From Diprion similis (lineage: Eukaryota; Arthropoda; Insecta; Hymenoptera; Diprionidae): 64,000 nt of DNA. Location: contig NC_060116.1 of the NCBI RefSeq assembly GCF_021155765.1, positions 5,642,001-5,706,000 on the forward strand. Reading direction: 5' to 3'. Shown in pieces: positions 24,526 to 61,894 of this stretch (positions are counted from its first letter, which is position 1; each line of letters opens with the position of its first letter). The translations under genes were made by a program, and so were the position numbers. The notes beneath the pieces were generated by a model that ran no database searches, was not told the origin of the DNA, and was given only the letters and a program-made list of their open reading frames with translations.

Positions 24526-27500
24526 TTAGAATTTGTCTCGATAGCCACCTCTTCCACTGCGAAATGGTCTTCCTCCTCTTGGCCCTCCACGTCCTTTGAA
24601 AACAGGAATTGACTGCCCACGTGGAATTTTAGCAAGTACGATTCGCTCGCTAGTTCTAGGAAATACTTCCGGTTCTTCTTCAATTTCTTCTGGAGAGTCA
24701 TCAATTACCATCGGGCTTTCTCCACGGCTACGATCGCTTCTATTATCATGAAAATGTTCATCGTGATCATCCACATTTTGTCTATAACTAGGTGGTAATG
24801 GGTCACGAATGAAATGATCACGTAGTATTGGCCCACGGTGTGATGAAAATTCTTCCCGGCTTCTCGCTGGTGTACAAAGTGTCAAGGTTCTGCTAGGAAA
24901 ATCAGGCAATGTACGTTCTCTGTTGAAGCTTCGGTCTTCGGGCTCTCTGGGTGGTGATACTGCTCTGCCCCACGGACGCTTTTGAGAAGAGTTACTCAGG
25001 CTCCATCTTAGATCATCGGCTTCTCGCGGTTTCGGGGTATAATCGAAAGTTTCTCGCATATTCCAGTCAAGCCTATCCATGATTGGTCTTTTTTCTTCTT
25101 TAACAGGTTGCTGTAAATCATTTAGATTTACTTGAACTCCAAACTCTGCAGTGATCACTGTTGCTTGGACTTCTTTTTGTTCAGTTTGAACCTCGTCTGT
25201 CTGACATATTTTTTGATGCACATGAACACCAGATTTCACAGTTATTTGCGAATGACGCTCTTCCTCCTCGTCCCAGTATATTTTATTTTTTCCTTTCTTC
25301 AGCAATATCGAATTTGATGATCGCTCTTCACTTTCACTAGGAGTATCTTCTTTTTGAGGGTTGAAAAAAAATCTACCCTTCATCTTCAATCTGGGATCCT
25401 CGACAGGCAGGTCCCGGAGAGCATGTTCGCAATGTCGTAGTATTTCTGGCTTGAATCCTAAGCCAAAAAGCAAAGTTTTTTGTTTCATCATTGTTAATTT
25501 GCAAATGAAATTAAAAGCCACCGTTTCAAAGAGCAGTATATTTTCACATATATACTGAAATCACAAATTTTTAATTATTATGTCACCACAGTAGCACGTA
25601 TCGCGTTAGATAATTCATCCGGGTATTTAAAATAATTGAATAGTACTGGTCATTACTTGTAATGAATCCATCTGTATGTCTATACAATTATCATGACGGA
25701 TGCAATAAACTAAAACCATCCAATATTTGTGTTATGCAGATGTTTGGTTTATGCATGCAATGTCCCTATAACTTGGTACATCATTCGACTGACCAGCTTG
25801 CATATTTCAAAGAATGAAACAGCAGTAAAGCTTCCATTTCTTTAGTTTCCATAGGAAACCTTGAAATTCAGCACATAAAGTGATCAGTGTTCATACAAGC
25901 ACAAAACTCCCGTCATTTTTCGGGAATTGAATAATATTGATAATTTTTTTTTCAAGTGTTACGTACTAAAATCACATTAATCAGGATATCTCACCTGGAT
26001 AAAGGACCGTTGGCCCAAGCGAATCTATAATATTTAAAACAAAAGAAGCATTAATATCATATGACACAAATGAAGTTTCAATTTTACTGCAGTTTTACTT
26101 CTTACAATCAAATGCTTTTAGAGTTCCAGCTTTACAACTCTTTCACAAATAATAAAACAGTATGAAAATTTTCGCACCTTTGGCAGAAACAGAAGCTTCC
26201 AACAGGCTGGATAAACTAGTCTTTCCGAAGGAGGCCTGGAATTTCAGAATGCAGCAGGGGATAGTAAATTGAAATTTGATGCATTTCACCTGGCTTCAAA
26301 GCTACCCCAGAATGTCAAGATGTATCGAAATAGTAGAAAAAAACGAAAATGACGATTTCTCTTAACACAACTATGTAAATACAGTAGTCATACCATAACT
26401 TTGCGTGTACTAACTTCCTGATCGACTCATCGGCTTTCATAACACATACTAAGCGTAAATGGTTGGATCACTACACTGCTATAGCTGTGATTAAAGATAA
26501 GATTTGACACAGCGAGTAGTTTCCTGTTTACCATATTAAGATGCTCTTAGCTTCTCAAGTAAGTTCTCAAATACTCCAAACTCAGAGCTCTAATGCTAGA
26601 AAGTTATGATGAGTCTACCATGACCGAACTTCTCATTAAAGAAGAAACTGAAGAGTCTAACGAAATAGTTTGTAGCAATAACTAAATCATGAGAATAAGA
26701 GAGATTGAGAATAATGTGTGAGGTAGCTGAAAAAGCACACAATTTTAAAATCTGAGTGGTAGAATAAAATTACTTTGGTGTCCGATATAACCGGCGGCTC
26801 AGGTGTTTTTAATCTTTCCTCGTGTGATGAATGTACATCATTATAGGGAGTAGTGGACCTTCGCATTCCCCTGTAGCTCCGAGGTGTGTTAGATCGAACC
26901 GATCTAGCCTGAGGGGAAATCGAACGTCTGCTGCTCAGATTAGTCTGCTGTTTCCCTGGGATCGGCACAAAGGGTGCCAGGTGATGTAGCTGATTATACA
27001 TAAGAGATCCTTGTTCCATGATCGGACCAGGGGCTGGTACAGGTTGAGGTGAAGGTACTGGCAGAGGTAATAGTGGTGGTTGAACAGGGGTTGAAGCATG
27101 TTGTCCATACATCACAGGTCCAGAAGAAAATTCAGATTGAATCATAGGCTGCGCCACAGTTGGATCGTAGTTGATGGGTGGAGTCATATGCGGATGAACT
27201 GGGTCAAAGTTTATGAACCCTTGCGGCGGACCAGTCATCATTAATCCCTGTGGTCCTGATGGATGATGTGACATGAAAGGTGGGTGCTGCTCCTGCTCGT
27301 GAGGGTAAATGGGGTTACCCATTGGTGGCATCCCAGACATCAATGGTGGAATCATGTATCCGAGATTTGCAGATGGTGGTTGCTGTTGCTGCTGTTGTCG
27401 GGTGGTTTCATTTCGAAATTGTCTTCTTATTTCATTGATGAATGGAGATCGTTTCCGTGTACGCCTGTGTGGAGATCTTCCTCTGCTACCGCTTCTGCTA

Positions 27501-29246
27501 CGCCATCGTGGACTACCTCGCCTATCTCCTGGAGAACGGCTGTACCTTCTTCGATGACGATCTGGACTTCGGCTTCTGTGTCGCTCTCGTGAACGACTTC
27601 GACGACTTGAAGGCTTGTAATCACTGTGAAAGTAGGCTATTTCTAAGATTCTAAGTAAACACGTAAAATAAATATCATACAGGTATCTACAAATTACTTG
27701 TGTACATTGTAGTTTATAGAAGTAATAATGGTACACTTATATTTCTAAGTCAATCCATTATTGGCACTGTTGAAGTTATACTTACTGTGGTTCGAGTAAC
27801 AAGCTCATGATCACTCAACTGTACAAAGAAGACGAATACCATACAGCACAGCACAAATTGTAATGGACTTGAGTCTTCGATAAAAAAAATCCTTACCGTT
27901 CACGAACTTCTTGGCGTCTTCTGTGTCGATCAGCGCTACGCCGTCTCTCCTCTGCACTAGTTTTGCGCTCCCAACTCGGTCTTCGTGGATGAGTAGGGCT
28001 TAATCTAAGCAGGCTCCTGGGTCTTTCGGGGCTCAGAACTAAGGGGCTTAGCTTATGAGGGCTTCTGCGAGACAGAGGACTTAATCTAACAGGACTTCTG
28101 CGAGATGGTGGACTTAATTTAATCTGGCTTCTGCGACGCTCCGGACTGATAACAATGGGGCTCCAGCGACGATGAGGACTGTTTCTACTCTTGTCATCAC
28201 TGCGTCGTCGGGCAGGACTTCCTCTGGTTCTTTTTTCTCTGCTTCGACGGCTTTTTGAAATTCCCACTTTGTCCACGTTCTGCTTCTCGGTGATAGTTTC
28301 AATGGCTTCCAGTTCCGTCCCGGGGGGCACAACATTGTCCGAATCTAGTAGAGTCTTGATTGCTTTGTTCTTTTCAGCTTGGATTTTACTTTCACAGTCT
28401 CGTTGCGTGCGCATTTTATCACGCTCAATATCTTTGGTACTTTTGTTTGGATCTCGACGATTTTCATCTCGTTTGCGATCCTCACGTCTGAGCCTCTCTC
28501 GGTTGTTTGGACTTCGGTGATCTCGAAAACGGTTGCGATCCCTACAATTAGTCTAGTAGTCATATTCAGTTGCAAACATTTACAATTACAGTTAGAGATG
28601 ACCACAAATACGTCTCTTGTTGCAAATGACTTCTGAATATACATATAAAATCATATATGCATATTATCGATTGATTTGCTTTTCCCCACATGTTACGTAC
28701 ATTTTAACATGAGCTAAAGGAAACAAAAATAATAGAAGTGTACTGAAAAATTGTATCATCATTGTTATCATGATGAATACTCCAATATAGTTAGTGAAGT
28801 TGAACATATTCTTTCATAATGGTAACAGAAACTCAAGCGATCATTCTCGTACATAAATAAATCATCCGCTACCTAGAGATTCGTCTTCGCTCCCTCTCTC
28901 TGCTACGACTTTTCGGTTTCTTTTCATGGCGTTTCTCTTCTTCACCTTCCCAGGCGTCTACGACGTCTAACCCTTCCATAAAGTCTTCGTCATCCAAAAA
29001 CTCTTGTAATTCTTCGTCCGGTATATCCTTCAATCCTTCTATTGCACGCTGGACGTCGTCGTTCGTCTTTGGCCGCGTAAGCTCCGAAGGATTCTTAGTC
29101 AAGACATCATCAGCTTCTTCTTTCGCGTTCCGCGGCTCCAACGTTTCGCTCTTCGTATCAGTCCCCGTCTTTGCAGATTCTTCTTTCTCTAAACCGCCAG
29201 AGGTTGATTCCGGGTTTTCTGAGTTCTCAGTTTTCGTGTCACCCAT
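24526..29246 (-). CDS. SR/RGG-rich nuclear protein, six exons
   Basis: Six exons join in frame: 29246-28873, 28541-27897, 27623-26774, 26235-26178, 26024-25995 and 25457-24526. Every junction has a GT donor and AG acceptor with matching phase, and the product is 962 residues. Residues 1-125 are acidic and end in a short Arg/Ser run. Residues about 126-340 are rich in RS/RD and contain tandem LSP repeats. Residues about 341-620 have RS dipeptides, a Gln run, and a Pro/Met/Gly-rich stretch. The last exon ends in an RGG-type tail (KGRGGPRGGRPFRSGRGG). No RRM or zinc finger is visible. The composition points to a nuclear-speckle, splicing or mRNP protein. An m6A-writer cofactor of the Flacc/ZC3H13 type is one possibility I cannot support by motif. 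The ATG was chosen as the first in an open leader, with the strong acidic N-terminus following. Confidence 0.85.
27985..28165 (-). repeat. In-frame minisatellite encoding LSP repeats
   Basis: Within exon 2 of the SR-rich gene, units of about 33-36 bp repeat. Each encodes a variant of S-R-R-S-P-x-x-L-S-P. Five to six degenerate copies are visible, each with SP dipeptides that could be phosphorylated. It expands the protein without breaking the frame. Confidence 0.75.
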
Positions 29247-32520: not shown

Positions 32521-33645
32521 CTGAACATGCATTAGCGAAATAAGTTTGCACTGATTGTGAGGACATTAGGATGTCGCTCATTTGGTCGGTAGGTAGCAGC
32601 GGTAGCAATCACGCAATAAGGCTGGCTACAGGAAGTAACCTGATTCAACATTTGTTGAACAATAAATCGCTGCGGAGTTTTACACAATAGCAAACAACTC
32701 GATTCTTGTTTAATAAGAAACTTATTACGGCATTAATTTAATTATTTTCAAGAATGCATTGGTATAAAAGAATTGATCAGTTTTATTTTTTACTGTTTTT
32801 CTTTCACATTTCTTACAAACATAAGTATGATTTCATTTTTCATGATTTGTTTGTCATTGTTTCAAACAATGATCAATCCATCAATCGCAAAATCAAATAA
32901 ATTCACACTAAAATACGGAAGCAGCCATAATTTTATGACAATCGCTGGGAGATGAATAATTCGCATTCAAAGGTCGTGTATAGTTCTAAACTAAACTGAA
33001 ACTTTACAGTTTTCCCGTATTACGTTTTTAGTACAGCAAAACATGCAAAAATAAATACATTAGAATAGCTTCTGTCTTGTGTTAGATAAAAATACCAGAG
33101 ATTGCATATATTCGAGAAAAAATATCTTACCCCAAAACTGTTATACTCATAGAATGATAAATTGACACAAACCATATCAATTGAACAAGTTTGGGCCACA
33201 TAAAGCATACTTGAAAATATTACGACCAAAGAAAATACGTAATTTATTCATCATTTATTTTCAGCAAAAAGTGCATTATTTTTGACCCGTAGTTACCACA
33301 CTTCTATCAAGCCATATGTGCCAACCACGCTAGATGGTACAAATTTGCACTGGTGTGGTTACTACAGGTTAAATGAAACTTAAAATGTAGAAAAAAAGAT
33401 TCCAAGATAAATCAATAATATGCTACTTGTAATTGATAAGTTACATAGTTCCATGATAAGCCCGTAATATTCAAACGAGGGAGGGACAATTTTATCAAAC
33501 CAAAATTAACGTTAAAAATTGTACGTTAGTAATAAAACTCAAAAGGTCAAAGTTTGTGTCAAGTTTTTACATGTACTCCTGCTAAGATTTTTGAAAACAA
33601 GATAACCAAGGGTAAAAATTACATTATAAAAAAAAAAAATCCGTT
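32521..33645. other. Intergenic and TUT1 downstream region
   Basis: AT-rich, with no coding frame of note. It should contain the 3'-untranslated region of TUT1. Nothing else is recognised. Confidence 0.5.
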
Positions 33646-36268
33646 TCACGACGATTGAGATGTCTGTTCCTTTTTCTTGTACTGCAACATGTGTGACAAT
33701 GTCTTGTCAACAATCTGAGGGAGTTTGCTGTTGATGTAATCCGAGAATTCTTTGAACGTATTTTTTACAGAATTATTGTTCTTAATGATCAACTCTACAG
33801 CAACGGGCTTTTGGAGCTTCTCAAATATACATGTGAAACTTATGATTGGAACACTCGATGCCGGAGTCTTTGTCAGCTCTTCCATTATCTTGTCAGATAT
33901 ACTAGCTTCTTTATCCAGGGCGCTCATTGCTGGATCAAGTATAGGTTTTTTATTTTTACGACCATGCCACAGTTTGAAGTAACCCAAACACTCGAGAACA
34001 GTTTTTGTTTTGTCCTTTGAATGTACGTCTGACTCTACTTCACATTTTTGTTGTTTCACTTCCCTATCCACCGATTCGAGTTTTACTTTGAACTTTAAGA
34101 CTTTTTCAAAAGTTTCTTTTGTGAGATTCAAAACAGTGTCATACCAATCATTTATTGTGAAATGTCCCCTATAGATTATATTTGGTTGAAGAACAGTGTT
34201 TTGCGGTAATCCAACTTTCAAAAACTGCTCACCTCTAATGAATATTTTAAACTTTGTCTGTTTATCCATCTTTGTTTCTCTCGTAAACAATATGGAAAAC
34301 AAAGTTTTATAATCATTTTCTTGCGCTTCTTTACAAACTTCTCGCGAAGTTATGCAGTGTTGCTGGAAGAAAGCTACCGTTCGACCACCTACTCTAGAGG
34401 TCACATTGTGATTCAATTCAAATGGATCTTGTAAACACATCGGTTTATCTATTTGCAGCAACAGAGGGTTTTGCGTTTCACGAATGTACTCCCTGTACCT
34501 AAACATGGTATTAGATAACTCTTCAGTGCTCGTGAAAACCGTTTTCGGATGTGCTTTGCCATCCAACGGGCAAAGTACTTTTGAACCAAGGTCAAGTCCA
34601 GCGTAAAAATCAAAAAATTCATACAATAGACTTGGAATACTATGTTCGTTTTTAGTATTCTGTAGTTTTATGTTTTCGTCATAATTCACTTGCCACCCTT
34701 GGACAAATTCGGGTGTGCAACTCGACTGCAGTTCCACAACTGTAGGTACTATGGCTCTTTCCGGTTGTTGTAAAAAGAAAATAACTAGCATGGTCAATGC
34801 ATAGTTTGAGATTTTTCCCACGCCAGCTATTCCAAATAGCTGTGCCCAGAATTTGATGATTACCATCAGAGGTTTTAGTCTTACGTCAAGCGATAGATAA
34901 TACTTTATTAAGTGGCTATTGCACACACCTAGACTGTTCTTAAAGTTAATATCGCAAAAAATTTTAGTAGGAGCATGACGGAATTTAATAATTGGCGTTT
35001 TTGCAGTTGGTATTAAAACAATATCAGTAAAAATATTTTTCCGCCTAAATAAAAGCGATTTTGCCATTCTGAAAACTTTCTTAGGAGTCCATTCACTAGG
35101 CTGTGAATCATCTTCTGATTCAATTATCGGTACACCTGAAAATTTCATAAGTTTCATTTGAGTTTGTGTCACTTATTCATCATATTGCACAAGTTAACAA
35201 TGATGAAAAAAGTCTTCAGTTGCATCATAATAACAAAAATAAAGTGATTTTGTATGTTTAGTAGTAATTGGACGACAAACCTATATCAATGTAAACATCA
35301 AGGTCACTTTCGATGAAGCTCAGACCAGTAACAGTTGATCCAAACCTTTGTACCTTACAATTACGAAACTTTGTCTTGAATATTTGATTCAAACTAGCAC
35401 AAACAGAACCAGAGTTTGCTTCAACTACAACATCGCTGGGTTGGATCGCATTTAAAAATGCAATCAACTGACTATCAAATGTAGTTTCAGTTTCGAAAAT
35501 GCCCCTCAAATCTTCATATGAAAGTGTACTTGAAGCTTGAGTGACTGGTGTTCTTTCTGCAATACGAAATAAGAGATATGTTAATTTCAAGAATTTCTTC
35601 TGTAGAATGTGTAATCGTCAGCTGGGAGGAAGAAAGTGTTGTTTCGGTTTCGCCGTGAAAAAGGTGTTGTTTTGGCTTCGACTTGAATAAGGTGATGTTT
35701 AACGAGCGATTAATTTTGAAATATCCAACTGATACACAGTAGTGAAAGGGATAAATATGATTATGATAAATTAGAATTGTTACCCACCATTTTGATGAAA
35801 TTTCCTTGGCTCAATACGTAATTTGTAATTGTTGATGAAAACTGGACGACTCATAAGAGATTTAACGGTTTCTCTGAAAATCAAGTTTTCAATTAAACAA
35901 TGTTCAAGATATTCAAATTCAAACGACTGAGAATACAGGTATGAGAAAATCATACAAGCTATTCAACTGGAAAATTATTGATAAGTTTAACTTAGAATAA
36001 AAAAGCCTCACCTTTCTGCAAATTGTATCAGCGCATAATCGCGTTGACACTTGTGACTTTCGATGAATCCATATTTAAGAAAAAATTCAATTAATTGCTG
36101 ACTAGTGAAATGTGGTGGCCAATTAGAAACAAAAATCGATCTTTCTTCGATGGCTTTTTTGAACTCTAAGAATTGCAAATTCTTTGCATGTTTTTTACCA
36201 GTTATATGACCTTGATATGCATAATCGTCGGCAAGATCAATCTGGCAAACTTCACAGTGTTTAGCCAT
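33646..36268 (-). CDS. TUT1: Terminal uridylyltransferase 1 / speckle-targeted poly(A) polymerase
   Basis: Four exons join in phase: 36268-36012, 35873-35788, 35556-35281 and 35135-33646, giving 702 residues. In this family the enzyme adds uridines to U6 snRNA and can polyadenylate selected mRNAs in the nucleus. Seen here, in order, are a U1-type C2H2 zinc finger (C5, C8, H21, H27) and an RRM (SIFVSNWP near residue 44, DYALIQFAER near 77). A polymerase-beta nucleotidyltransferase core follows, with FGS at 186-188 and the aspartate pair D199/D201 (SDLDVYIDIG). D268 (KIFCDINF) is the probable third metal ligand, and then come a central domain and a PAP-associated domain (DPFELNHNVTSRV). The zinc-finger-RRM-NTase-PAP order is diagnostic. 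The start is the first ATG, which overlaps the TRPT1 stop codon. The human protein is longer (about 870 residues), mostly through an inserted linker. Confidence 0.95.
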
Positions 36269-36270
36269 TA
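36266..36270 (-). promoter_or_regulatory. TAATG stop-start overlap joining TRPT1 and TUT1
   Basis: On the minus strand the TAA stop of TRPT1 (36,270-36,268) and the ATG of TUT1 (36,268-36,266) share one A. The surrounding exon is continuous from at least 36,861 to 36,012, so no intron or spacer separates the two reading frames. This arrangement would allow termination-reinitiation on a bicistronic mRNA. Confidence 0.9.
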
Positions 36271-36861
36271 CGGAAATAGTTTACGACCATCCGAAGACGA
36301 AACCTTCAAGAAATATTTGGGTTCCAAAAATCCGTAAGGATTCCCTGGGCAAAGTATCACACCGTTTTCAGATTCATAAAATTCTAAACCATCTTGCTGA
36401 GCTTTGAAAAAATCAACAATAACGTAAACCTGGGCGCTACGTCGCAATCCTGCAGTAAAATTGAGCCCTTTCGAGAAATGTATGTGATTTCTATTCATGC
36501 GAGACAATCCCTTGTTTTTTATGTTTCCCCAACGATTAAAGTATGTTCCGTGAATTATTTCATAGTCTGGATTGTCTACCAATTTCAAGCTCAAACTATT
36601 CACTTGGCTTAGTGAGTGTCCCTGGTTAGCCTTAATCACTAGCGTACCATCTAATTCTTTAAGAGTGAATCGGTTTTTTGTATTCTCAGCAACGACTCTT
36701 TTCACATCTTCGACTGTCCCGCGGTGGGGGCCCACCTTGATAAGGATATCTCTAACAGGAACAAATCCTTCCGGGCTGATTGTTAGACCCTCTTTCACAG
36801 CACCGTGACGAAGAAGGTAGGATAATCTTTTCGAGAGTTGGAAATCACGCTCGATTTTGTT
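36268..36861 (-). CDS. TRPT1: tRNA 2'-phosphotransferase (N-terminal exon unresolved)
   Basis: This enzyme transfers the splice-junction 2'-phosphate of ligated tRNA to NAD+. The visible exon encodes 197 residues after the acceptor at 36,862 (GTTTCAG, then AAC). It shows family signatures in order: QLSKRLSYLLRHGAVKEG (the Arg-His pair), FVPVRDIL, IKANQGHSL, HGTYFNRWGNI, HIHFS, GLRRSAQVYVIVD, and ANGVILCPGN-like residues near the end. The length suits the family (about 200-250). An in-frame stop just before the acceptor shows that a further 5' exon is needed. One short possibility is ATG-ACT at 36,920-36,915 with a 53-bp intron and a weak donor (GTGTGA). An exon further upstream toward 37.6 kb is also possible. 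One catalytic-tetrad position usually Arg (RANQGHS) is Lys here. The frame ends inside the TUT1 start codon. Confidence 0.93.
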   Translation of the reverse strand, partial: NKIERDFQLSKRLSYLLRHGAVKEGLTISPEGFVPVRDILIKVGPHRGTVEDVKRVVAENTKNRFTLKELDGTLVIKANQGHSLSQVNSLSLKLVDNPDYEIIHGTYFNRWGNIKNKGLSRMNRNHIHFSKGLNFTAGLRRSAQVYVIVDFFKAQQDGLEFYESENGVILCPGNPYGFLEPKYFLKVSSSDGRKLFP

Positions 36862-36920
36862 CTGAAACGTTTAACGCACATTACGTAAATATCTTAAAGC
36901 ATCCAAAATCACACAGTCAT

Positions 36921-37739
36921 GTTATGAATTTTTTTCACATAACCTTGCTCAGCAAAAGAGGCTGACCAATTGCTAGAACATTTAAAAAATTCCTGGTGGG
37001 AATTTAAAGAGATGGTGGGAAAAAAATTGTGTTTCTTTTGCTCTTTCAACCCTGCGAAGCCGTGAGTACTAGCAGAAAAAAATGTGCTCATCGACAGTTT
37101 GTCAAAATTTGCGTGAACTCGTTTTTTTCTTCAAGTTGCTAACTTTCTATCGATTATCCAAACATTCCAACTTATTTCATACCATATTTTTTTTAATCCA
37201 TGTAAGACGGTCATCCGACTGCCACCAATGACACTTTAATCAACAGATTGGCGATCTTTTTAAATCGGGATTTGACATGAGTCACCTTCTTTCCGTTAAT
37301 AACTGTATATTACAACCACAGGTAGTCAACGCGTCGGCTATCTAGCGTGCGTTTTACTCAATCCCATGGTACACCTGGAAAGATACAAAGACATGAGGTT
37401 AAAATGGAAAAAATTTCTACTGCACGAAATGGCGTACACACCGTTTGGTACATCGCGTCACGTCCTAAGTTGAGGGTGTTAAAGTGTGAGTCGAGCCAAT
37501 TATAGCCTTGGTCGAGAGGAAAGGGCCAATAGGGTGGTGAATTCACTCACTTGAAGTGCGCCTCAGTCGCATGTAAACTAGAGACGAAGCATCACTTTCG
37601 ATTGAATCGAGTTTTATCGCCACAAGTATTAAGTAGGTTAGTTTTTCGATAGTGGTCAATACGTACTGGGATAGGATATCTTCTGCAGCGTGCTGCATAG
37701 TTCTTCAATAACTAGTAACGACTAAGTAATGTTGATAAA
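36921..37739. promoter_or_regulatory. Divergent promoter region between TRPT1 and PET117
   Basis: About 0.8 kb separates the oppositely oriented TRPT1 and PET117 genes. Minus-strand splice-like signals occur at about 37,556 (a GTGAGT donor after a short ATG frame) and 37,377 (acceptor CTTTCCAG). These could be 5'-untranslated exons of the TRPT1-TUT1 transcript. No TATA box is obvious. A shared bidirectional promoter near 37.6 kb is a reasonable inference. Confidence 0.4.
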
Positions 37740-38047
37740 ATGACGACATTGTCAAGAGTAGTTTTAGCCTCGAGCTGCACAATATCATTAGGGATTATCG
37801 GTTACGTGCATTACGCCCAGTTCATGGAAAGGTTTGTGAGAAATTTTTATTATTTTACCAAATGTTAAGGTTATGTACAGCATTTGTTGAGCATATCGAT
37901 TGCTTCAGGGAGGAACTTCACGCGGGTGTTGTACGTGACTGGGAAGCACAGGAGCGTATGAAGAGAAAGAACACTTTTGCACTCGCGCGCCAATCTGATA
38001 TCGCCAAAGAATTGCGGAAAGAAGAGTTGGCGCAGCATGAAACATGA
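37740..38047 (+). CDS. PET117: PET117 cytochrome c oxidase assembly factor
   Basis: Two exons, 37740-37831 and 37909-38047, are joined across a 77-bp GT-AG intron in phase 2 and give 76 residues. PET117 is a small protein of the inner mitochondrial membrane and matrix needed for complex IV assembly, where it works with the heme a pathway. The N-terminal half is a short hydrophobic signal-anchor (SLGIIGYVHYAQF). It is followed by the family motif of the form REELHAGVVRDWEAQERMK and a basic, charged helix ending in KELRKEELAQHET. Length and layout match known PET117 proteins (about 75-85 residues). The ATG is the first in the exon. It is transcribed divergently from TRPT1. Confidence 0.9.
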
Positions 38048-38383
38048 TTGAGTTGTCGCGAGTAGATAGAATTATTTATGGATGCGAATAATTTTCTGCA
38101 TATCTTTCCGACCATACTACTATTGGTTTTGTTTTTACACAACTAGTGAATGATTTCCATCAAGTAATGTGCATATCACCTAAGAATCGCGTATGCATTG
38201 CTTGTTGCCAGTGTACAGGCGCTATGCGCTCAATATTTCTAGTGGAATACATTATTTGAAGAACATCAATCGAGAGGCACCTTTTTCTGAGTAAACGTCA
38301 AAATTGAAAAACAAAAAAATTAGTCAGATTTTCAATTTTTATGGAAACTTAGAAGGAGAGTAAACTTCATTAAAGACTGTTGA

Positions 38384-49695: not shown

Positions 49696-52600
49696 ATGCG
49701 GTTCAAATTATTGAAATTAGCGACTGTCCTGCTCCTCGCGGGATCCAGCGATGGGAGACCTCAAAAGCTTGGTGAGTGGCATTAAAACTCTGTACGTAAC
49801 AAGTGCATCGCGCTACCGAACCAACAGCGCGAAGAAGTCTTGCAGCGACGATTTTCTAACGTTGAATAAGTCGAGGAAGTATTACGTGATGTGGAAAACG
49901 CGCCGATCCAACGGCGGATGTTATAGTCTTTGACTGGCTTCTAAATACGGTCATCATACGGCTGAAAGTTTTTAATCAGAGATTCGATGTAATCGCGGGT
50001 TGTGAAGAAGCATTGTGAAACGTAATACTCGTGTATCATTACCGTGAAAGAACTAATATGCGAACGTTTATAGAACCCACAAACTAAACCGTTACCCTAT
50101 TCAAGAAAATTTTATACAAGAACAAACCAAACTCTAATAAAAACTGATCAAAATTTGCACTTCCTTACAGAGGTCTCACGGAGTCTTCAACCGGAAGTAG
50201 AAGACCCGAATACGGAAGGATGGCGACCGGTGCAGCGTGGCGTGAATTTCGCACAGGAGCCAAAGCCTGTCGTCAAGGATCTGCCTCAAATTGTCGAAGG
50301 CAATAGCAGGTACACGGAAGGAAGGCGCGCAACGCGCGGAAAAGCTTATCTTATGAATAACCTTTTTTACGAAGATCGTATTGTCCTTGAAGACAAACGA
50401 GTTGGCGATAGAAACTACGAGCAATTAGATCTAGGGGCCTCAGATTCCGAGTTATTTAGACTGTCTGTACCGAGAACAAAAATTGGACTGGAGTTAGGTA
50501 GGAATTTAGCGACTGAAGGTAGAAGTAGTAAGGATGTAAGGATACCGTCTGGCAATGAGGTTGGTAGGATTAAAGGTAGAAATACTTTCGATCACTTTGT
50601 GGCGAACAAAACTGCCGAAGCAAAACCCAAGTTGGTAGATGAGGTTTCGATGGATGTTAAATCACATTCGAATTTGGATAAGACTGTATTACTTTTAGGG
50701 AATAACTTGTCTTCCAATACCGATGAAAGCACAGATCGAATTATATCGTTGAGACGCTCACGGGATGGTTCATTAGCGATAGGTTCAGTTTTGTCTTCGA
50801 GCCGAATGACGCTGGAAAAACCAGAAGCGAAGGTAGTAAGTTCGAGCAGAACTAAGCCACGGGTTGTTATTTATTCTGGGACTATTTCAGAAGGTTCTCG
50901 GCCGGCACAGCTGAACAGGGCAAAAGTTAGAAATTTCCTTAAAATTGTACCAACCTATGCGAATCAAAAAATTTCTAGGAACAAACCGGCGCATTTGCAT
51001 AACAATCTTCATTCGCATCGCAATATTCACAATCGGGTTTCTAGTCCGAACTTGCACGATTCGCAAGCTGAAGTAAAGCATTTTGAAAGTGATTCAAAGA
51101 AATCGGTGGTCACGTTTCACTTACTAACCGACCAAAGTGTCCAACAGAAATTTGGTCAAAACAATTCTACAAACAACCTGATCCGTATGAAACCGCAGGC
51201 GAACCAATCGCTGCCTCATTTCACATTGAAAAGCGAAAATCACCAGGCTGGCGAGCAGGTACGTGGAAAAAATAAACCGAAGAGCAATGTCAAGGTGAAC
51301 GTAAATTCGAGTCAAAGTGTCTCGGACTTGAATCTTAAGAACTGGCCGAACGATAACTTGCAAAATATCGAGGATTTGTACAATTACGAAAAGTACACAT
51401 CCTTCGATGATGGTTATGACAGTTTGGAAGCGCAGGAAATTACCGATGTTTCCGTGCTTCATCAAAATGCGCCCAGCTTCCACGTCGTAAAGAAGAAACC
51501 TGGAAGCAAACCATCGATTTCGATTTACGATCATCCGACAATTTCTGATCAGTCTGCAATAAGCGTTGGCGAAGCGGATATGACAGCCATTCCCGAGCCT
51601 GCGTCTTATGCAAATCTCGAACAAAGCGCGCAAGAAGTAGTTCAGTGGCAACAGATTCCTCCGTTTACCTCTGACAATAGCGACTTTCTAGCTACAGAAA
51701 TGAACGGAAACGAATCGAATACGTTTGATCCAATTCCAGAAGGCTTAGAACCGAATCAACCAATAAATCTTGAACAGGTTAACGGACAGAGTACAAATTT
51801 TTACGGGTACATTAACGGAAAGCCATCCGTCCCAGTTATGCAAAATTACGATGATTCCGCTCAGGGGCAAGTAAATTACGAAGATCAGTATCACCAGCTG
51901 ATTTTTCAAAATTTAAATTCGCATGCGTCGCAAAACAACTTTTATCCAACGCATGTAACGAGGCCAACAAGCGAAACGGTTGGAAGCGATGGTGCTTACA
52001 TGGATTATCAAACCGATCCCACTAATGGGCCAAACCTGTCCAAGAAGCCGCAATTCAACCCAACATCAGTCGTCTCGCAAAATACCGTAGTACACATCCT
52101 GAATACCGGTAAGAAACGACCGAATGTCACCGTAACCGAAATGAAAGAACCGGATAATCCTGGCACGTCACTGAATCCCAATGATCCGAAAGATGACAAA
52201 AAGAATGATTCAGCCTCGGCACCGAACGTTCACATAATGTTCACCATGCAAAAAGACGAGATCGAGCAGAACGAGATGCAGCCCGGGGTGTCAATGGATC
52301 ATGAGATTCCGGAAGTGACGTACGACGAGGGCAGCAATTGTCCAACGGTGACGATCAACTCTTACACCAGGATAAACAATACCGTCCAAGGCAAGGAGGG
52401 CTGTACCGATTTGAACATCGTCATAAACTCGCACGTCCTAAACACAAATGTATTCAAGCACCCGCCACCCTCCACCGGAAATTATGGATCAGCGACCAAG
52501 GTGCCTAGTGAGCGTTACCCAGGAAGCGGTCTGAACCAGGGTAGTTACGCTCCTCCTTCAGGCGGTTATGGTACTTCCGGCGGAGGCTACGGAACGTTTC

Positions 52601-53622
52601 CTTCCGGTAGTGGACAGCACCCGGAAGGATTATACCAGCAAGGTGATTCTCAAAACGTTCCTATTGACGATGGTCAGGACCTTCAGGGTGTGCTGCAATA
52701 CGATCAGTACGATCAGCAATTCCCAGGGACGGCGACTCTCGAGGTCTTCCAACAGACCCAAATCAACGTTGGCTCGCAGAACGATGTGTCAGATGCAGAA
52801 GGTTCTTTCGAACCAGATCCCCCAGGCAACTCTCCTAGCTCAGGTGATGGTTTAGCTGACGATCCGTCTGCTCCTGATGCTGGAGTACCAGATAGTCCTT
52901 TGAATCCTGGTGCAGCACCGGGAAGTCTCCCAGGATTTGCGGATGATCCAGGTGGTTCAGAAGTTGCAAGTGACCCTGCGGCCGGAGGTGGTGTCCCATC
53001 TATTCCTTCTCTAGGTGGAATGCAGGGGTTCCCACCGCTGGGGGATGAAGAGATTCCAGCCGATGTGGCGGCGGCTGCTGTTCCGGAAAACGCGGCTGCG
53101 GACGTTCCGATATCCCCGGGAACTGGTGGCTCTTCTGGAATACAATTACCCGGGATTGGAAATCCGTTGTCGGGTATAACAGGTCAGCTTTCGGATGCTG
53201 TTGGGAATCTCGGCTCTCAAAACGGGAACGGAGGGCTTGGCCCAGGGTCCGTTCTCGGGGATGACGATGACGTCGATGACGATGACGATGAAGATGACGA
53301 TGACGAGCTGATGGACCTGATGCCCTTCAGTATCGTGGAGTCTATGACTTCTATGCTTCCCTACTTTACATTTTTGAATCCGTTGAATTATGGTTTCTTC
53401 AGCATCGCGATGTCGCCTCTCGCCGTTGCTGCAGCCGGTATTTTTGGGTTGGCGGCGTTTTTCGTTCCCTTCGCGTTTCCAACCGCTTTAGGTTTCGGAC
53501 GGGCAACTAATCGAGTTAAGGTCAGAGTCACACCCACGCTTGAGGACATGGTCATACGGTCGATTCATAAGTACAATAATTGGAACGAGTGGAAGAGCAG
53601 ACGAAAGAAGCGAAAAAGATGA
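49696..53622 (+). CDS. Large secreted, nearly cysteine-free protein with hydrophobic tail (1175 aa)
   Basis: Two coding exons, 49696-49771 and 50171-53622, join in phase 1 across a 399-bp intron. The first exon encodes a signal peptide (MRFKLLKLATVLLLAGSS). The mature protein is long, polar and probably disordered, rich in Asn, Ser, Gln, Pro and Gly. It has exactly two cysteines, C749 and C770, 20 residues apart in a compact Thr/Asn-rich module. After that come Tyr/Gly- and Pro/Gly-rich stretches, an aspartate run (about 1064-1080), a hydrophobic segment (about 1087-1130, including SPLAVAAAGIFGLAAFF), and a very basic end (KSRRKKRKR). I do not recognise a named family. The layout suggests an extracellular matrix or cuticle-associated protein, possibly membrane-anchored. 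The next two genes share the general plan. Confidence 0.85.
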
Positions 53623-53875: not shown

Positions 53876-55275
53876 ATTCTATTCTACAAGTCCATCGTCC
53901 CTCTCCTGAGCCCGTATAATTACTTAAACCATAATTAAATTTAGTGTGTTTATAATTAAATTTCACTTCTCTATAAAATCGTACCACTGCCATGTGATTC
54001 CGGTTGAAATTACTTCCCTGTACTGTAAACTCGATCATTCGATCAAGTTCCAGCAGTCTTTTGTTGGTCAATAATTCTTAACACCGTTCCAGTACGATCT
54101 TGAGTATATGTATTATCATCTTGAGATTGTAAATTCATTACCAAGAAAAATCATAAAAAATAACGGTATCGATCCGTCCATAATTAGATTTAACGCACCA
54201 TGACGTCTGTGTGCATCGCCATTCTCGCAAATCGTCGGCCGAAGACGTAATTACGCTTTAATGCGCGTCTATAAGTGTAATATTCTCGATTACTAGCATT
54301 TAGATAATTTCCTTCCTCAACGACACTTGTGACCTAGTAAATTTGACAGTCAGTATCAGAATTGATCAAGTTATCCGTAGAATTCGTTTACACAATAAGA
54401 CAATGACTAGAATCGTCGAAAAATATTCTGAATAGCCTGCCATTAATGGTAAACTCGAAGTCGACCAGGTCAGTTTTTTCTACGAATGTCTGATACGCAC
54501 AATTATAGAATATACCGCGGTATTAGAAGCTGGAAATATGCGCTGATCTACTTTTACATAGCGTGCGATTGACCGATCATTACGGCGGTGAGTACTTCTA
54601 CTCAAATTAGGTATGGACAGTGTATTCAATCCAGAGGTCTTTGATAGAAATTCATTATTGGTGGGATTATAATTAAGTAATAAAATGCTACGCCTAGTTT
54701 TTTCAAGCGTATAAATGCACGTTAGACGTAGGAGCTCAATATTGTTGTGTAACGGCTCTTCGATATAATTTTCATAAGATAGTATTACACTACCTTAATT
54801 GTTGAATTTATTATTCATTTCTTCAATGTTAATTAGTAATTTAATTAGGCTACAATTTTATAACTTGGCCAATTGGTCCTCGTAAGAAAGGTAATTTGTA
54901 CAAAAGTAACGTAGTTTCATTGTCACGCACAATTTGATTAATGCTTTTACCGTACGGTCTTTTGAAGAAGTTGTTATTACAAAATGCGCTCGGGCCGAAT
55001 CAGTCGGAGTTTATAGTCAATATAGAAGTTATGTTAATTAATTTTATACTGAAGTTTCTACATCACATAGACGGTATCTAATCAATGGGCATGGACCAAA
55101 TAGTAATTTAATGTTTAGAAAGAGAACATGTATTATAGAACGACAAATAAAAGGTTACCCGGATTATTAGAATTTTTTCACTTTGCCGCCTGAAATAGTG
55201 GATAATTAAAATGAAATTCAATATACGCCCCGCAAATGAAAAGTGCTCTTTACTTACGAGATTATTTTATTTCAG
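53876..55275. other. Intergenic region plus 5' part of the next secreted-protein gene
   Basis: The first coding exon of the gene at 55,276 must lie here, ending in phase 2. Several short ATG frames can be made to splice: ATG at 54,200 with a GTAATT donor, at 54,490 with GTGCGA, and at 54,827 with a stronger GTAAGA donor. None has a textbook signal peptide, so I do not choose between them. Confidence 0.5.
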
Positions 55276-58200
55276 AATCCAAGTTTCGAAGTCTCAGCGG
55301 GATGCTAAAGACCTTCCTGACATGAAGCAGTCTCTGAGGACTGTGGCAACGCAGTTACTCAACGTGACTGACCCCAATGAATCTCCAAAAACGTCTGCTG
55401 ACCTGAAGAACGAAGCTGGCAGGACGAGCGAACCGAAGAAGCTCGTTACCATCGGAAAGATCGGGAAATTTGAAAACTTACCAAGCACTGAAGTGAAGTC
55501 GAAAACGGAGGACCCCGACCTTCTTATAAAGGAGATAAACTCGGAAATAAGTTCCATGGAGGCTATCGGCGTCAGTTTTGGGCGACCTATGAACTCGAAA
55601 TTTGGTTATTTCGAAAGTAGCCACCCGGGACTTGCAATGGCCGTGACAGATGAGGAGTTGGAGAAGGAATTGTCCTCGAGACGAGACGTGATTGGCTACA
55701 AAAACCAGCTGACCACTCCGGGCGGAATATCGACCTGGATTCTCTTGAACCCACCAACGACAACACCGAAATCTGTACAGCAAGAGGCGAAGAAGCCGGC
55801 TGACACAGTCAAGAAAATCGCCACGAAGCCGACGTCTTCTATCGAGAAGATAGACGTCGATCAACAGGGCCAAAAGAAACCGATTGCAATAGTAGAAAAG
55901 GTAATGCCCACACAGTCCTCAGGAAAGTTGGCGACGAATAAGGTTAAGCCCGTTCCAAGTAACTCTAGAAATGGTCAGAAAACGACAACTGTAAAACCAC
56001 AAGTGGCGCAGACGACACCTAAGAAAGCGACTGTCAATCCTGGACAGTCTCCTGCAGAAGTTACAACCCCGAAGACGAAGGAAACGGACAATTTCCCCAC
56101 CACGGAAAAAGTACTGACAGTGACGAAGAAAATCATCCAAGTTCAAAGAACGACCCAGCAAAAGTTGGCGACATCTACGACCACCGTTAGGTCAACGCCA
56201 AAAATACCGAAGGGAAATCTGAACAGAACCAGATTTCCAGCTAGAACTACAACGACAGCGAAACCGGAGAAGAAACCTGAAACAGTATCCACAACTATGA
56301 TTGAGAAGGTGACATTTAAGCCGGTTCAAATGATACCAACGCCGAAGGATGAGACGATAATAGAAAGGCCCACCTTTGTAGCGAAGATAAAGACGCCTAT
56401 CCCTGTGGAAATGCCGAGAAGCACTCCGGCGCCAGTTCCGAAAAGCACAACACCAGAGTTCAGAGAAACGACAATGGCTGCGAAGACAGATTTCACGGGG
56501 TCGGATCTCGTTGAAGTTCCTGTCCAGACGAAACTTCCGATAACGAAGATAAACAACGTGTTGAAGGCTGAGATGAAGAAACCAATCGACGAAGCACCCA
56601 AGATCGAAGATCCAGTATTGAAGAGTAAGAAACAGAGTGCTGACGAGAAAGTCGATGCCTTGAGCGATAAAGCTATCTCCCAGGCACTGAATAATTCTCA
56701 GATCGATCTTAAGTTTGAATTCAATCCTGAACTGACGAAAATTGAAGTAAAGTCTCCCCCAGAAGAGCCGTTATTGAGCACGACTACGAAAAAACCGAGG
56801 AGAAGTTCGCAGAAGCGGCGAAGAAACAAGAACAAAGTGAAGCGACGTAGGCCTTCCAGCTCAACCACGGAAAGCAGCGAAGTCACGACGGAATTGATCG
56901 CTAGTGAAACAGCTCTTCAAGAATCCAAGGTAGAGCCTGACACGAAGGAAGTGAACGCGACGAAAACGAAGAAAAAACAAGTCGAGAAACCGATCGGTAC
57001 ACAGATTTACAATTACTTGAGCCGAGAAATCATGCCAAGCTTTGGAGTTGTGTCTTTGGTTGGTCTGGGTCTGGGATTAGCTTCTTATTTCCTGTATCCG
57101 TTCGGAGGTGGAATTGCGCGGAGAAATTACGAGGTTGAGCCAAATTACAAATACAACCTTGGCGAATATGGCGGCAATTACGGCCAAAGTGAGGAAGAAG
57201 TATTCTCTAAGGTCCTCCAAGGTATGACGAATCACGAGGAAAAGTATGGGGGCGCCAAGGATTACGACTTGAACAATTATTATCGATACCAGAAGTTCGG
57301 AGGTCCGGCTATCACTGACACGAAACTGACAAAAAGAATTGATCACAGATATCCCACGTCTTCGTCTGGAACAGCGTACAAACCGCTCGAAAATAGCTAC
57401 GACATGAAATATAAGAACACTGAATTTAAGTATCCCGAAGTTTCGACGACGGCAAATTATTTCGAACGACAAAAACAGTCTGGTTATACCGTATCGGCTG
57501 ACGGAGATGCGGACCGTCAATTTGTCGTCGGGAGCGTCCCCAAGGAGTACGGCTACGTCGAAAGCCCAGTTGTTGGTCAGAAGACGTCAACGTACGGTGA
57601 AAACGGGGACGGCCAAACCCAGTTCGAGGAGGACGGAGCACAGAACTATGCTTTTCCAAAAAATTCCGCAAATGTTTCTCCGTTGCAATCGTACGGACAA
57701 CCGGAAGCGTTGCCCTTGAAGAGCGACGCCAATTACGACGAGATCGAGATCACGCCTACGGCAGTCGCGGTCGAACATGGTCCCAGAGCTTTGAAAGTGA
57801 AAAGGTCGATAGATGAAGATCCGTTCCGTGCACACCCACGATTCCGAAGAGAGTCCGTTATCCAAGTGATACCACCAAGCGGAAGCCTGGCAGTTACCGA
57901 AAAAGAAGAGAACTTGAGCAACGAGATATTCGACATCCTCGACCTCATGATACCGGGCAAAGACGAGGCTCGGAAAATCAAGGACCACACGATGTCAAAC
58001 TCCATTGACCATGACGAGAAGATCGAGAAGAAGAGGGAGGGAGAAAAGACGAACATGGCTGACAGTACGACGGAGAATATCGTGGAACTGGAGGACAAGA
58101 AAACCAGTGAAAAATTGGTAGCACCGACCGTCATACCGACGATGAGTCCTACGGAGACATCTTCGAGCACTCATTCGCCTTCAACAACCGCAGCACAAGA

Positions 58201-58522
58201 GGTTGAAGTGGTTACCACGACGCCAACTGCCTTCAGCGAAGAAGCACCGACCGAATCACAGACCAAAGATGAGTCGATTGACGATATAGCAACGGAAACT
58301 GAGGGACAGGATCTCGAAGAGACGACTGTAGAGTCGTTAGATGAAGCGACGACGACCGAAAAGGCGGACAAACCAGAAGAGTCGGGCTTCAACATATTCG
58401 AATTCGTTAGGAAGGTCGCAGAAATTAAGTTCAGGTTAGGATTGACCATACTGAAACACGCGAGCGAAGGATTCGCGCGATATTTAGGGGGTGTTCAGAA
58501 GAGAATCAATGGCGAGGAATGA
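55276..58522 (+). CDS. Large Thr/Lys/Pro-rich secreted protein, main exon (5' exon unresolved)
   Basis: After a clear acceptor (TTTTATTTCAG) one exon encodes about 1081 residues to the stop. I see no cysteine in this part. Residues about 1-150 are charged and contain a GGISTWILLNPP motif near 152. About 160-560 is mucin-like (Thr, Pro, Lys, Val). A basic patch (KKPRRSSQKRRRNKNKVKRR) precedes a glycine-rich hydrophobic segment at about 588-612 (FGVVSLVGLGLGLASYFLYP), then a Tyr/Gly-rich region. Two convertase-like sites, KVKRS near 840 and RFRRES near 855, suggest proteolytic processing. The C-terminus is acidic and Thr-rich and ends in an amphipathic helix (FVRKVAEIKFRLGLTILKHA). The signal peptide must be on an upstream exon. 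No named family is recognised; an extracellular/cuticular role is inferred. Confidence 0.82.
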
Positions 58523-60045: not shown

Positions 60046-61815
60046 CTACATTCGTAATTTTCTGAATTTTCTTCGATTGCTTAGCTTACTAATAAAGTCG
60101 TCTTTCAGTTCAAAGATCGATGATTTCAGAGTGTTTTCGAATTCTTCAGGATTGGCGGCACGCCTTTTTCTCCCCAGCATCATCGGTATCATCATCGCCA
60201 TTGTCGCCGGCAACATGCCGGCTCCGACAGCTGCCAAAACTGCCGAATTCGACGGCTGCTTTTTTCCAGCATTGCGAATCGGCCTCCTGGTCAGTACGGA
60301 GGAAGCGGTCGTCTGTTTCGTATCTTCGTATTCTCTTTGGCTCTGATCGACGGTCTTGAAGGTCTTCTCAACCTCCAAAAGGCCTCCGTGGGAGGTCGTG
60401 GTGTTAGTACCGTTCACCGAAGGCAGAACTGTCAATCTGACTTGACGTCTTGACGACATCACTGGCACAGTTGGATCCGGACCATTTTTCTCACGATTCC
60501 CATGGGCCAAGGTCTGAGGCTCACCATTTGTCGCTGATACTTTGATCGACCTTTGACGAGATTTGGTGTATCCTCTATTAGTCGAGAGCAGAACCCACTG
60601 CCCATCGCCATTGGCGGGGTGGGTGGGTGGATGATCGGTGGAGTACTGATAGTGGGAAAAATGGGGTCTGTCGAAGGATGACGAGGGTTGCGGAAAGTTC
60701 GACGGTCTATTATTCAGCTCCTCGTACTTCGGAGGAAATTCGTACTTGTGACTGTTCCATCCGGTCGTCGTCTGCTCCCGATTGCCGTCTCCAAACCTGT
60801 CCAAATTGTAGGACGGTTTCGATATCTGCGGCTTGTCCCAGTTGCTGGGAAAGTTAGCCGGTTTGTCGTCGGTGATGATGTCCGACGTGTGTTTGAAAGA
60901 GTCCGCATATTTGTCCCAAGGTTTTTCCGGGGGCCACTTTTGGGCGTAGCTAGGCCTGTCTTCAAAATCGTCCCCATCGAAGTACGACGGTCGTGACGGT
61001 TTGCTGGGCTTTGGACGGTCAGATTCGAACCACGGTTTTTTGTTACCAGCGTTGTCCGGGTAGTGAGGCTTCGGCTTGTCATACCATGGAACGTTGTCGT
61101 CGTTATACGATGGTCTCTGCTGCCAGGGTCTGTCCACGCTTTGAGGCTTCTCCCACGGGCGATGATCCGGCCAAGGTTTTTGTGCGTCTTGGCTTGCTTG
61201 CCACTTCGAAATCTTACTCTTGGACCACGGGATCGCTTCCAGGGTAACCCAGCCGGTCCGGTCGTCATAAGAATTGCTGCCACCCCACTGTTTGTTCCTT
61301 TCGAATGTGTCATTGGCGTTTTCATCACCTTGGGGATGATCCAGTTCTGAGTTAGTGTACGCTGTCGTATTTTCCTTGTCGTTCGTTTCTGACTCATCAA
61401 CCACCGAATCATGAACTTCAAGTTGGAAAGGCTCGACTGGAGGTTCAATAACCGTGAACGGGTATTTGTAATTTTTCTCAGTCGTGCTTTTTATCTTGGT
61501 AGCGTACTCTTCGAGGAATTTATTCAGCACATCCGGGTTAAACGTCGATGTTTCGACGAACGAATGCCTGCGCTCGAATTTCGAATTACCTTGTTCGTAA
61601 ATCGAGACGTCGTCCTCGATTTTGGAATTAACCTCGTGCCACGGACTTTTCGTTACGGCAATTGGTTCTTGGGGTATTTTTAAATTGTTGTTCCTAGTTT
61701 TGAAAAGATCGGAAACACTGTAATTCGTTTTCGAAAGGAATCTAGTGTCGCCCAAAGATTCGTCTACAATTAGGCAGATCAAAAGTAGCGAAACCGCACA
61801 CTTCAACCCTGACAT
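60046..61815 (-). CDS. Secreted Trp/Pro-rich protein with hydrophobic C-terminal segment (589 aa)
   Basis: The coding frame begins at the ATG at 61,815, immediately after an acceptor (TTTCTTACAG). It follows a 79-bp intron whose donor is at 61,895/61,894 (GACC, then GTAAGT), so the leader lies in a separate exon. The product is 589 residues. A strong signal peptide (MSGLKCAVSLLLICLIVDES) is followed by a mature protein without cysteine. Residues about 212-300 carry repeated PW motifs (KPWPDHRPWEKP, VDRPWQQRPSY, KKPWFESDRPKP, PPEKPWDKY). A GQWVLLSTNRGY motif follows. Near the C-terminus is a hydrophobic stretch at about 524-547 (AAVGAGMLPATMAMMIPMML), then a convertase-like GRKRR (548-552), then a helix-like EEFENTLKSSIFELK and a basic end. 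It is convergent with the preceding gene. The family is unrecognised; a cuticle or matrix role is inferred. Confidence 0.87.
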   Translation of the reverse strand: MSGLKCAVSLLLICLIVDESLGDTRFLSKTNYSVSDLFKTRNNNLKIPQEPIAVTKSPWHEVNSKIEDDVSIYEQGNSKFERRHSFVETSTFNPDVLNKFLEEYATKIKSTTEKNYKYPFTVIEPPVEPFQLEVHDSVVDESETNDKENTTAYTNSELDHPQGDENANDTFERNKQWGGSNSYDDRTGWVTLEAIPWSKSKISKWQASQDAQKPWPDHRPWEKPQSVDRPWQQRPSYNDDNVPWYDKPKPHYPDNAGNKKPWFESDRPKPSKPSRPSYFDGDDFEDRPSYAQKWPPEKPWDKYADSFKHTSDIITDDKPANFPSNWDKPQISKPSYNLDRFGDGNREQTTTGWNSHKYEFPPKYEELNNRPSNFPQPSSSFDRPHFSHYQYSTDHPPTHPANGDGQWVLLSTNRGYTKSRQRSIKVSATNGEPQTLAHGNREKNGPDPTVPVMSSRRQVRLTVLPSVNGTNTTTSHGGLLEVEKTFKTVDQSQREYEDTKQTTASSVLTRRPIRNAGKKQPSNSAVLAAVGAGMLPATMAMMIPMMLGRKRRAANPEEFENTLKSSIFELKDDFISKLSNRRKFRKLRM

Positions 61816-61894
61816 CTGTAAGAAATGAAGTTGAATCAGCATTTCCTCGCATTTTAATACGCGCTGAATTATAACAACAAGTGATGTAACTTAC

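Follow-up and report, generated by a model that had tools for sequence, protein, structure and literature searches.

How does an animal obtain two separate proteins from coding sequences that share a base within one uninterrupted exon? This question is raised by a locus in the hymenopteran Diprion similis. The window analyzed here is the whole of a 64,000-nucleotide stretch of contig NC_060116.1 (positions 5,642,001 to 5,706,000 of assembly GCF_021155765.1), and its minus strand carries TRPT1, predicted to encode a tRNA 2'-phosphotransferase of the Tpt1/KptA family, followed by TUT1, predicted to encode a terminal uridylyltransferase. In the reading that we favor, at slightly better than even confidence, the two genes form one transcription unit whose two products are chosen chiefly by splicing. 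Restart of translation at the overlap is the chief rival of this reading; a promoter internal to TRPT1 ranks third, and leaky scanning or an internal ribosome entry site (IRES) comes last.

The original prediction described a single exon that spans the junction of the two coding sequences, and this arrangement is borne out. One exon of 850 bases (36861-36012, minus strand) holds the 3' part of TRPT1 and the 5' part of TUT1. It contains the pentanucleotide TAATG (36270-36266), in which the TRPT1 stop codon TAA (36270-36268) and the TUT1 start codon ATG (36268-36266) have one A in common. The exon is bordered by an acceptor, ...CGTTTCAG/AAC, whose first exon base is 36861, and by a donor, GAAAG/GTGAGG, whose last exon base is 36012 (a slash marks a splice border). 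Splice sites in both gene models were read from the sequence and from homology. The features that define the two genes are as follows.

37442..37453, minus strand: candidate TRPT1 coding exon 1 (MYQT), inferred, with donor ACG/GTGTGT
36862..37441, minus strand: inferred TRPT1 intron 1, with acceptor CGTTTCAG/AAC (score 1.1); the homologous frame starts just past the acceptor
36268..36861, minus strand: main coding part of TRPT1 (tRNA 2'-phosphotransferase, Tpt1/KptA family), from Pfam PF01885 and PDB matches
36266..36270, minus strand: TAATG stop-start overlap, from the sequence
36012..36268, minus strand: TUT1 coding exon 1, with the zinc finger, the first part of the RRM-like region and the donor GAAAG/GTGAGG
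35788..35873, minus strand: TUT1 exon 2
35281..35556, minus strand: TUT1 exon 3, in which the nucleotidyltransferase palm domain begins, with its SDLDVYID motif
33646..35135, minus strand: TUT1 exon 4, with the remaining palm domain, the PAP-associated domain and the stop codon

In the TUT1 frame, an in-frame stop codon lies 12 nucleotides 5' of the ATG, and these 12 nucleotides contain no AG. The ATG of the pentanucleotide is therefore the first ATG of the TUT1 frame in the shared exon. The same two properties dispose of a fusion protein with an intact zinc finger, since TRPT1 residues cannot be spliced in front of that domain; any TRPT1-TUT1 fusion would need a splice within the zinc finger. 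In the third frame, an AUG at 36290 (minus strand) begins an open reading frame (ORF) of nine codons, which runs across the TRPT1 stop and the TUT1 start as far as 36261 (36261-36292). Genome searches covered the 269-Mb assembly of 60 contigs, whose COX1 is readable with the invertebrate mitochondrial code and in our reading is insect-like. A retrocopy from which transcript structure might have been read was discarded as a source, as the DNA of the 850-bp exon matches only itself (one match).

The identities originally proposed for the two genes hold up in Pfam and PDB matches, and both coding sequences are intact. For TRPT1, the Pfam profile PF01885 matches with an E value of 5.5e-55 (186.6 bits), and the PDB matches include chains named 'tRNA 2'-phosphotransferase 1' (best E value 9.9e-42). 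An alignment to PDB entry 6ede, counted by hand, finds the Arg-His-Arg-Arg tetrad complete, at LLRHG, KNRF and MNRNH; entries 6ede and 6e3a we take to be CthTpt1. The catalytic tetrad of CthTpt1 consists of Arg18, His19, Arg68 and Arg121 (PMC6333775). On the family profile and the tetrad together, the predicted TRPT1 product is a member of the Tpt1/KptA family. As a correction to the original prediction, TRPT1 requires an upstream coding exon. On the minus strand upstream to 39500, the highest-scoring combination of an ATG with a phase-0 GT donor is the MYQT exon, with a score of 3.4 as against 1.8 for the next. With this candidate exon joined, the product would have 202 residues. TRPT1 has one match in the genome, and no second copy was found there.

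The TUT1 model has 702 residues, encoded by the four exons listed above and separated by GT-AG introns; the donor of intron 3 scores low (-0.2). The zinc finger, the nucleotidyltransferase palm and the PAP-associated domain all exceed their Pfam cut-offs. The RRM-like region matches PF00076 with 18.1 bits, which is under the cut-off of 20.7, and the PDB alignment passes through this region. In the PDB, the closest chain is 'Speckle targeted PIP5K1A-regulated poly(A) polymerase', a name of TUT1 (E value 7.2e-45). By its three domains and its best relative, the predicted protein belongs to the TUT1 (U6 TUTase / Star-PAP) family, and its predicted activity is uridylylation of U6 small nuclear RNA (snRNA). 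A genome search returned eight TUT1 matches, of which four are its own exons, and no second copy. The other four are 29-32% identical with at most 51.7 bits, and we read them as probable other nucleotidyltransferases. In collections of prokaryote and viral sequences, a query of 497 residues of exon 4 found no relative, as expected.

Do the two genes share a transcript? The minus strand has no AATAAA or ATTAAA from the TRPT1 stop (36268) down to 34989. Barring a non-canonical signal, polyadenylation of TRPT1 mRNA should thus come no earlier than the last exon of TUT1, so that the transcript takes in at least TUT1 exons 1-3. The original proposal that the TRPT1 transcript runs on into TUT1 gains support. 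Four canonical hexamers lie within the last exon of TUT1 (34989, 34909, 34156 and 33954), and TRPT1 mRNA could end at these. The likely common 3' end is farther downstream:

33243..33259, minus strand: a pair of AATAAA signals past the TUT1 stop, from a hexamer scan

Because TRPT1 is without a canonical poly(A) signal of its own ahead of the last TUT1 exon, the arrangement suggests that a processed mRNA with both coding sequences, which is dicistronic in the sense used by FlyBase, would be made. We come to the following proposal. TRPT1 and TUT1 would form one transcription unit, with transcription starting upstream of TRPT1 and ending past TUT1. Splicing of the upstream exon to 36861 would give a structurally bicistronic mRNA from which TRPT1 is read first. 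The bulk of TUT1 protein would probably come from a second mRNA of this unit, with an upstream exon joined to an acceptor in the 3' coding part of TRPT1. The ATG of TAATG would then become the working start codon of TUT1. Two candidate acceptors could serve in this way:

36449..36451, minus strand: candidate internal acceptor, first exon base 36449 (TTTTACTGCAG/GATTG), score 3.5
36344..36346, minus strand: candidate internal acceptor, first exon base 36344 (ACTTTGCCCAG/GGAAT), score 3.1

Of the four acceptors inferred to be real, three score lower than both sites (1.1, 1.6 and 2.3) and one higher (5.7). The 594 nucleotides of TRPT1 exon have two acceptor-like sites with scores of at least 3.0; synonymous shuffles (2000) have 0.33 on average, and 3.3% of them have two or more. 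As controls, three exons of TUT1 and three long ORFs from the window together have seven such sites in 10741 nucleotides. These observations bear on two claims of the original prediction. Its statement that no splice site can lie between the two genes is true of the one-nucleotide junction; it fails for the TRPT1 exon 5' of the junction, where the candidate sites at 36449 and 36344 lie. By limiting the sources of TUT1 to reinitiation, leaky scanning or an internal transcription start, it also overlooked splicing that skips most of TRPT1 into one of these sites.

Several points weigh against a choice by splicing, which for D. similis is itself inferred. The splice matrices are rough, and the acceptor threshold of 3.0 was chosen after the scores were known, so that the excess of acceptors is a lead and not proof. 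Messenger RNAs that begin with the candidate exon 1 would also carry an upstream ORF. If MYQT is joined to 36344, this upstream ORF would have 16 codons and stop 37 nucleotides short of the TUT1 AUG, and one further AUG would lie in the interval from the splice junction to the TUT1 AUG; if MYQT is joined to 36449, it would have 25 codons, and three AUGs would lie in that interval. Among fly dicistronic genes, separate mRNAs for the 3' coding region usually arise from another promoter and not from splicing (FlyBase; PMC4528330). Finally, the Drosophila transcript for Tpt1, which comes from a comparable locus considered below, is described as lying entirely in an intron, in contrast to the exon that both coding sequences share in D. 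similis. For a TUT1 transcript with the Tpt1 coding region inside an intron, the candidate acceptors in D. similis are those at 36449 and 36344.

The alternative that survives best is termination followed by reinitiation. After ending TRPT1 at the UAA, ribosomes would slip back by a single base and begin again at the overlapping AUG, and the bicistronic mRNA would in this way yield TUT1 at a fixed, low ratio. We consider this unlikely, though the likeliest of the rivals. UAAUG is the overlap at which reinitiation produces BM2 of influenza B virus, with an efficiency of about 10% (PMC3035654), and it is also used for reinitiation at VP2 of murine norovirus (PMC2793014). In the silkworm retrotransposon SART1, translation is coupled at an overlapping stop and start, which is UAAUG according to the title of a work cited in PMC5972666. 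Also in favor, the TUT1 AUG has a G at both -3 and +4, and the TRPT1 mRNA is probably bicistronic in structure.

Of the features of a termination upstream ribosome-binding site (TURBS), the stop-start overlap is present as UAAUG. However, motif 1, UGGGA, which is complementary to helix 26 of 18S ribosomal RNA, does not occur within 150 nucleotides upstream of the junction. AGGGA occurs no nearer than -76, and the norovirus 8-mer is matched best at -59, with two mismatches. Predicted folding is ordinary upstream of the junction (z +0.9), downstream of it (z -1.2, where 28 of 200 shuffled sequences are equally or more stable) and across it (z -0.1). The five human transcripts shown to couple termination with reinitiation encode aspartate-rich C-termini, according to PMC3923131, but the C-terminus of TRPT1 is not aspartate-rich. 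Moreover, ribosomes are held to reinitiate only very rarely once they have translated a long ORF (PMC5972666). The original suggestion of reinitiation is unproven: the overlap fits it, and the missing UGGGA and the ordinary folding do not.

Next in order is a promoter that TUT1 possesses for itself, within the TRPT1 coding exon or intron, from which TUT1 mRNA would start inside TRPT1. The fly precedent for separate mRNAs cited above would favor such a start, and we regard it as improbable at this locus. A mixed mechanism appears to us improbable. It would have TUT1 restarted at UAAUG after a TRPT1 of approximately 200 codons and without UGGGA, while splicing could free TUT1 from this coupling and splicing capacity would set the ratio of TUT1 to TRPT1. 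Leaky scanning or an IRES on the bicistronic mRNA is very improbable: FlyBase suggests that many dicistronic genes of the fly may use an IRES (PMC4528330), but the 100 nucleotides 5' of the junction contain no stable structure, and the leaky scanning originally entertained is disfavored by the seven AUGs that, besides the TRPT1 start, precede the TUT1 AUG in the main TRPT1 exon, six of them out of frame and not depleted (mean in synonymous shuffles 6.5, standard deviation 1.4; 49% of 5000 at or below six).

If products are indeed chosen by splicing, the efficiency of splicing would decide which enzyme is made, and an enzyme that matures U6 would be tied to the splicing machinery that it serves. 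The one-nucleotide overlap is also a clean natural test of restart at UAAUG in a cellular gene of an animal. In the fly, depletion of Tpt1 did not significantly affect viability, as reported in PMC8935212, so only limited weight can be attached to the coupling of TRPT1 with TUT1.

On the other side of TRPT1 lies a divergently oriented gene:

37740..38048, plus strand: PET117 (exons 37740-37831 and 37909-38048), from Pfam PF15786 (E value 9.1e-19)

The ATG of PET117, a cytochrome c oxidase assembly gene, and the candidate ATG of TRPT1 are 287 bp apart, and a bidirectional promoter common to the two genes is plausible for this reason. Elsewhere in the window are three very long open frames that are rich in low-complexity sequence, at 50074-53622 and 55199-58522 on the plus strand and at 60046-61890 on the minus strand (1182, 1107 and 614 residues, respectively). 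None has a Pfam match at an E value of 0.001. Two open frames on the minus strand at 26687-28552 have arginine/serine-rich stretches that resemble those of SR-type proteins; these also are without a Pfam match at that threshold. On another contig (G000:C7:8182164-8182700), a partial COX1-like stretch with five internal TGA codons is perhaps a nuclear copy of mitochondrial DNA.

How does this locus compare with known systems? Among the matches listed in our literature search, we found no description of a TRPT1-TUT1 bicistronic gene. Influenza B BM2, murine norovirus VP2 and SART1 have the same UAAUG stop-start as TRPT1-TUT1. Unlike these systems, TRPT1-TUT1 is a cellular gene, and it is without the UGGGA of motif 1 and without marked structure.

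FlyBase dicistronic loci are another point of comparison. Release 6.04 of FlyBase lists 159 dicistronic pairs, and at 45 fly loci both products apparently come from dicistronic mRNA only (PMC4528330). Given these numbers, the original view that such coupling is unusual among animals goes too far where insects are concerned. The FlyBase loci likewise have separate coding sequences in tandem within one unit. At fly loci with only polycistronic transcripts, the distance from stop to start ranges from -34 to 319 nucleotides (PMC4528330), and the one-base overlap found here falls within this range. Processed dicistronic mRNAs are supported for the fly loci, whereas for TRPT1-TUT1 such an mRNA is predicted.

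The nearest parallel is a locus in Drosophila. There, the Tpt1 gene (CG33057) lies inside an intron of mkg-p, this intron can be retained in small nuclear ribonucleoprotein (snRNP) mutants, and Tpt1 protein is increased in one mutant of snRNP biogenesis (PMC9434302). Among the matches listed, this nesting is described only in that report. Because of the retention effect, we infer that both fly genes are on the same strand. Mkg-p (Monkey King) and Tailor are described as derivatives of TUTase6, a U6 uridylyltransferase that was initially recognized for regulating U6 snRNA (PMC5509036). We equate TUTase6 with TUT1 because that report cites work on human TUT1 for it. Consequently, the Tpt1 and TUT1 families are at one locus in the fly as well. 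Since Mkg-p is the copy beside Tpt1, mkg-p and not Tailor is probably at the ancestral TUT1 locus of the fly.

The two arrangements differ in detail. The fly Tpt1 transcript is wholly within the mkg-p intron, whereas in D. similis the coding sequences share an exon with an overlap of one nucleotide. According to PMC5509036, Mkg-p has lost its RNA-binding domain and its PAP-associated domain. The TUT1 of D. similis retains the zinc finger and the PAP-associated domain, together with the sub-threshold RRM match. By analogy, the fly case points to a choice by splicing within one unit. TRPT1-TUT1 looks like an old shared gene unit; if the pair has been kept in both D. similis and Drosophila, a locus that joins a U6-modifying enzyme to Tpt1 has persisted in insects, in two lineages so far. 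TRPT1-TUT1 is a tighter version of the known fly locus, and an unusually tight pair of the dicistronic type.
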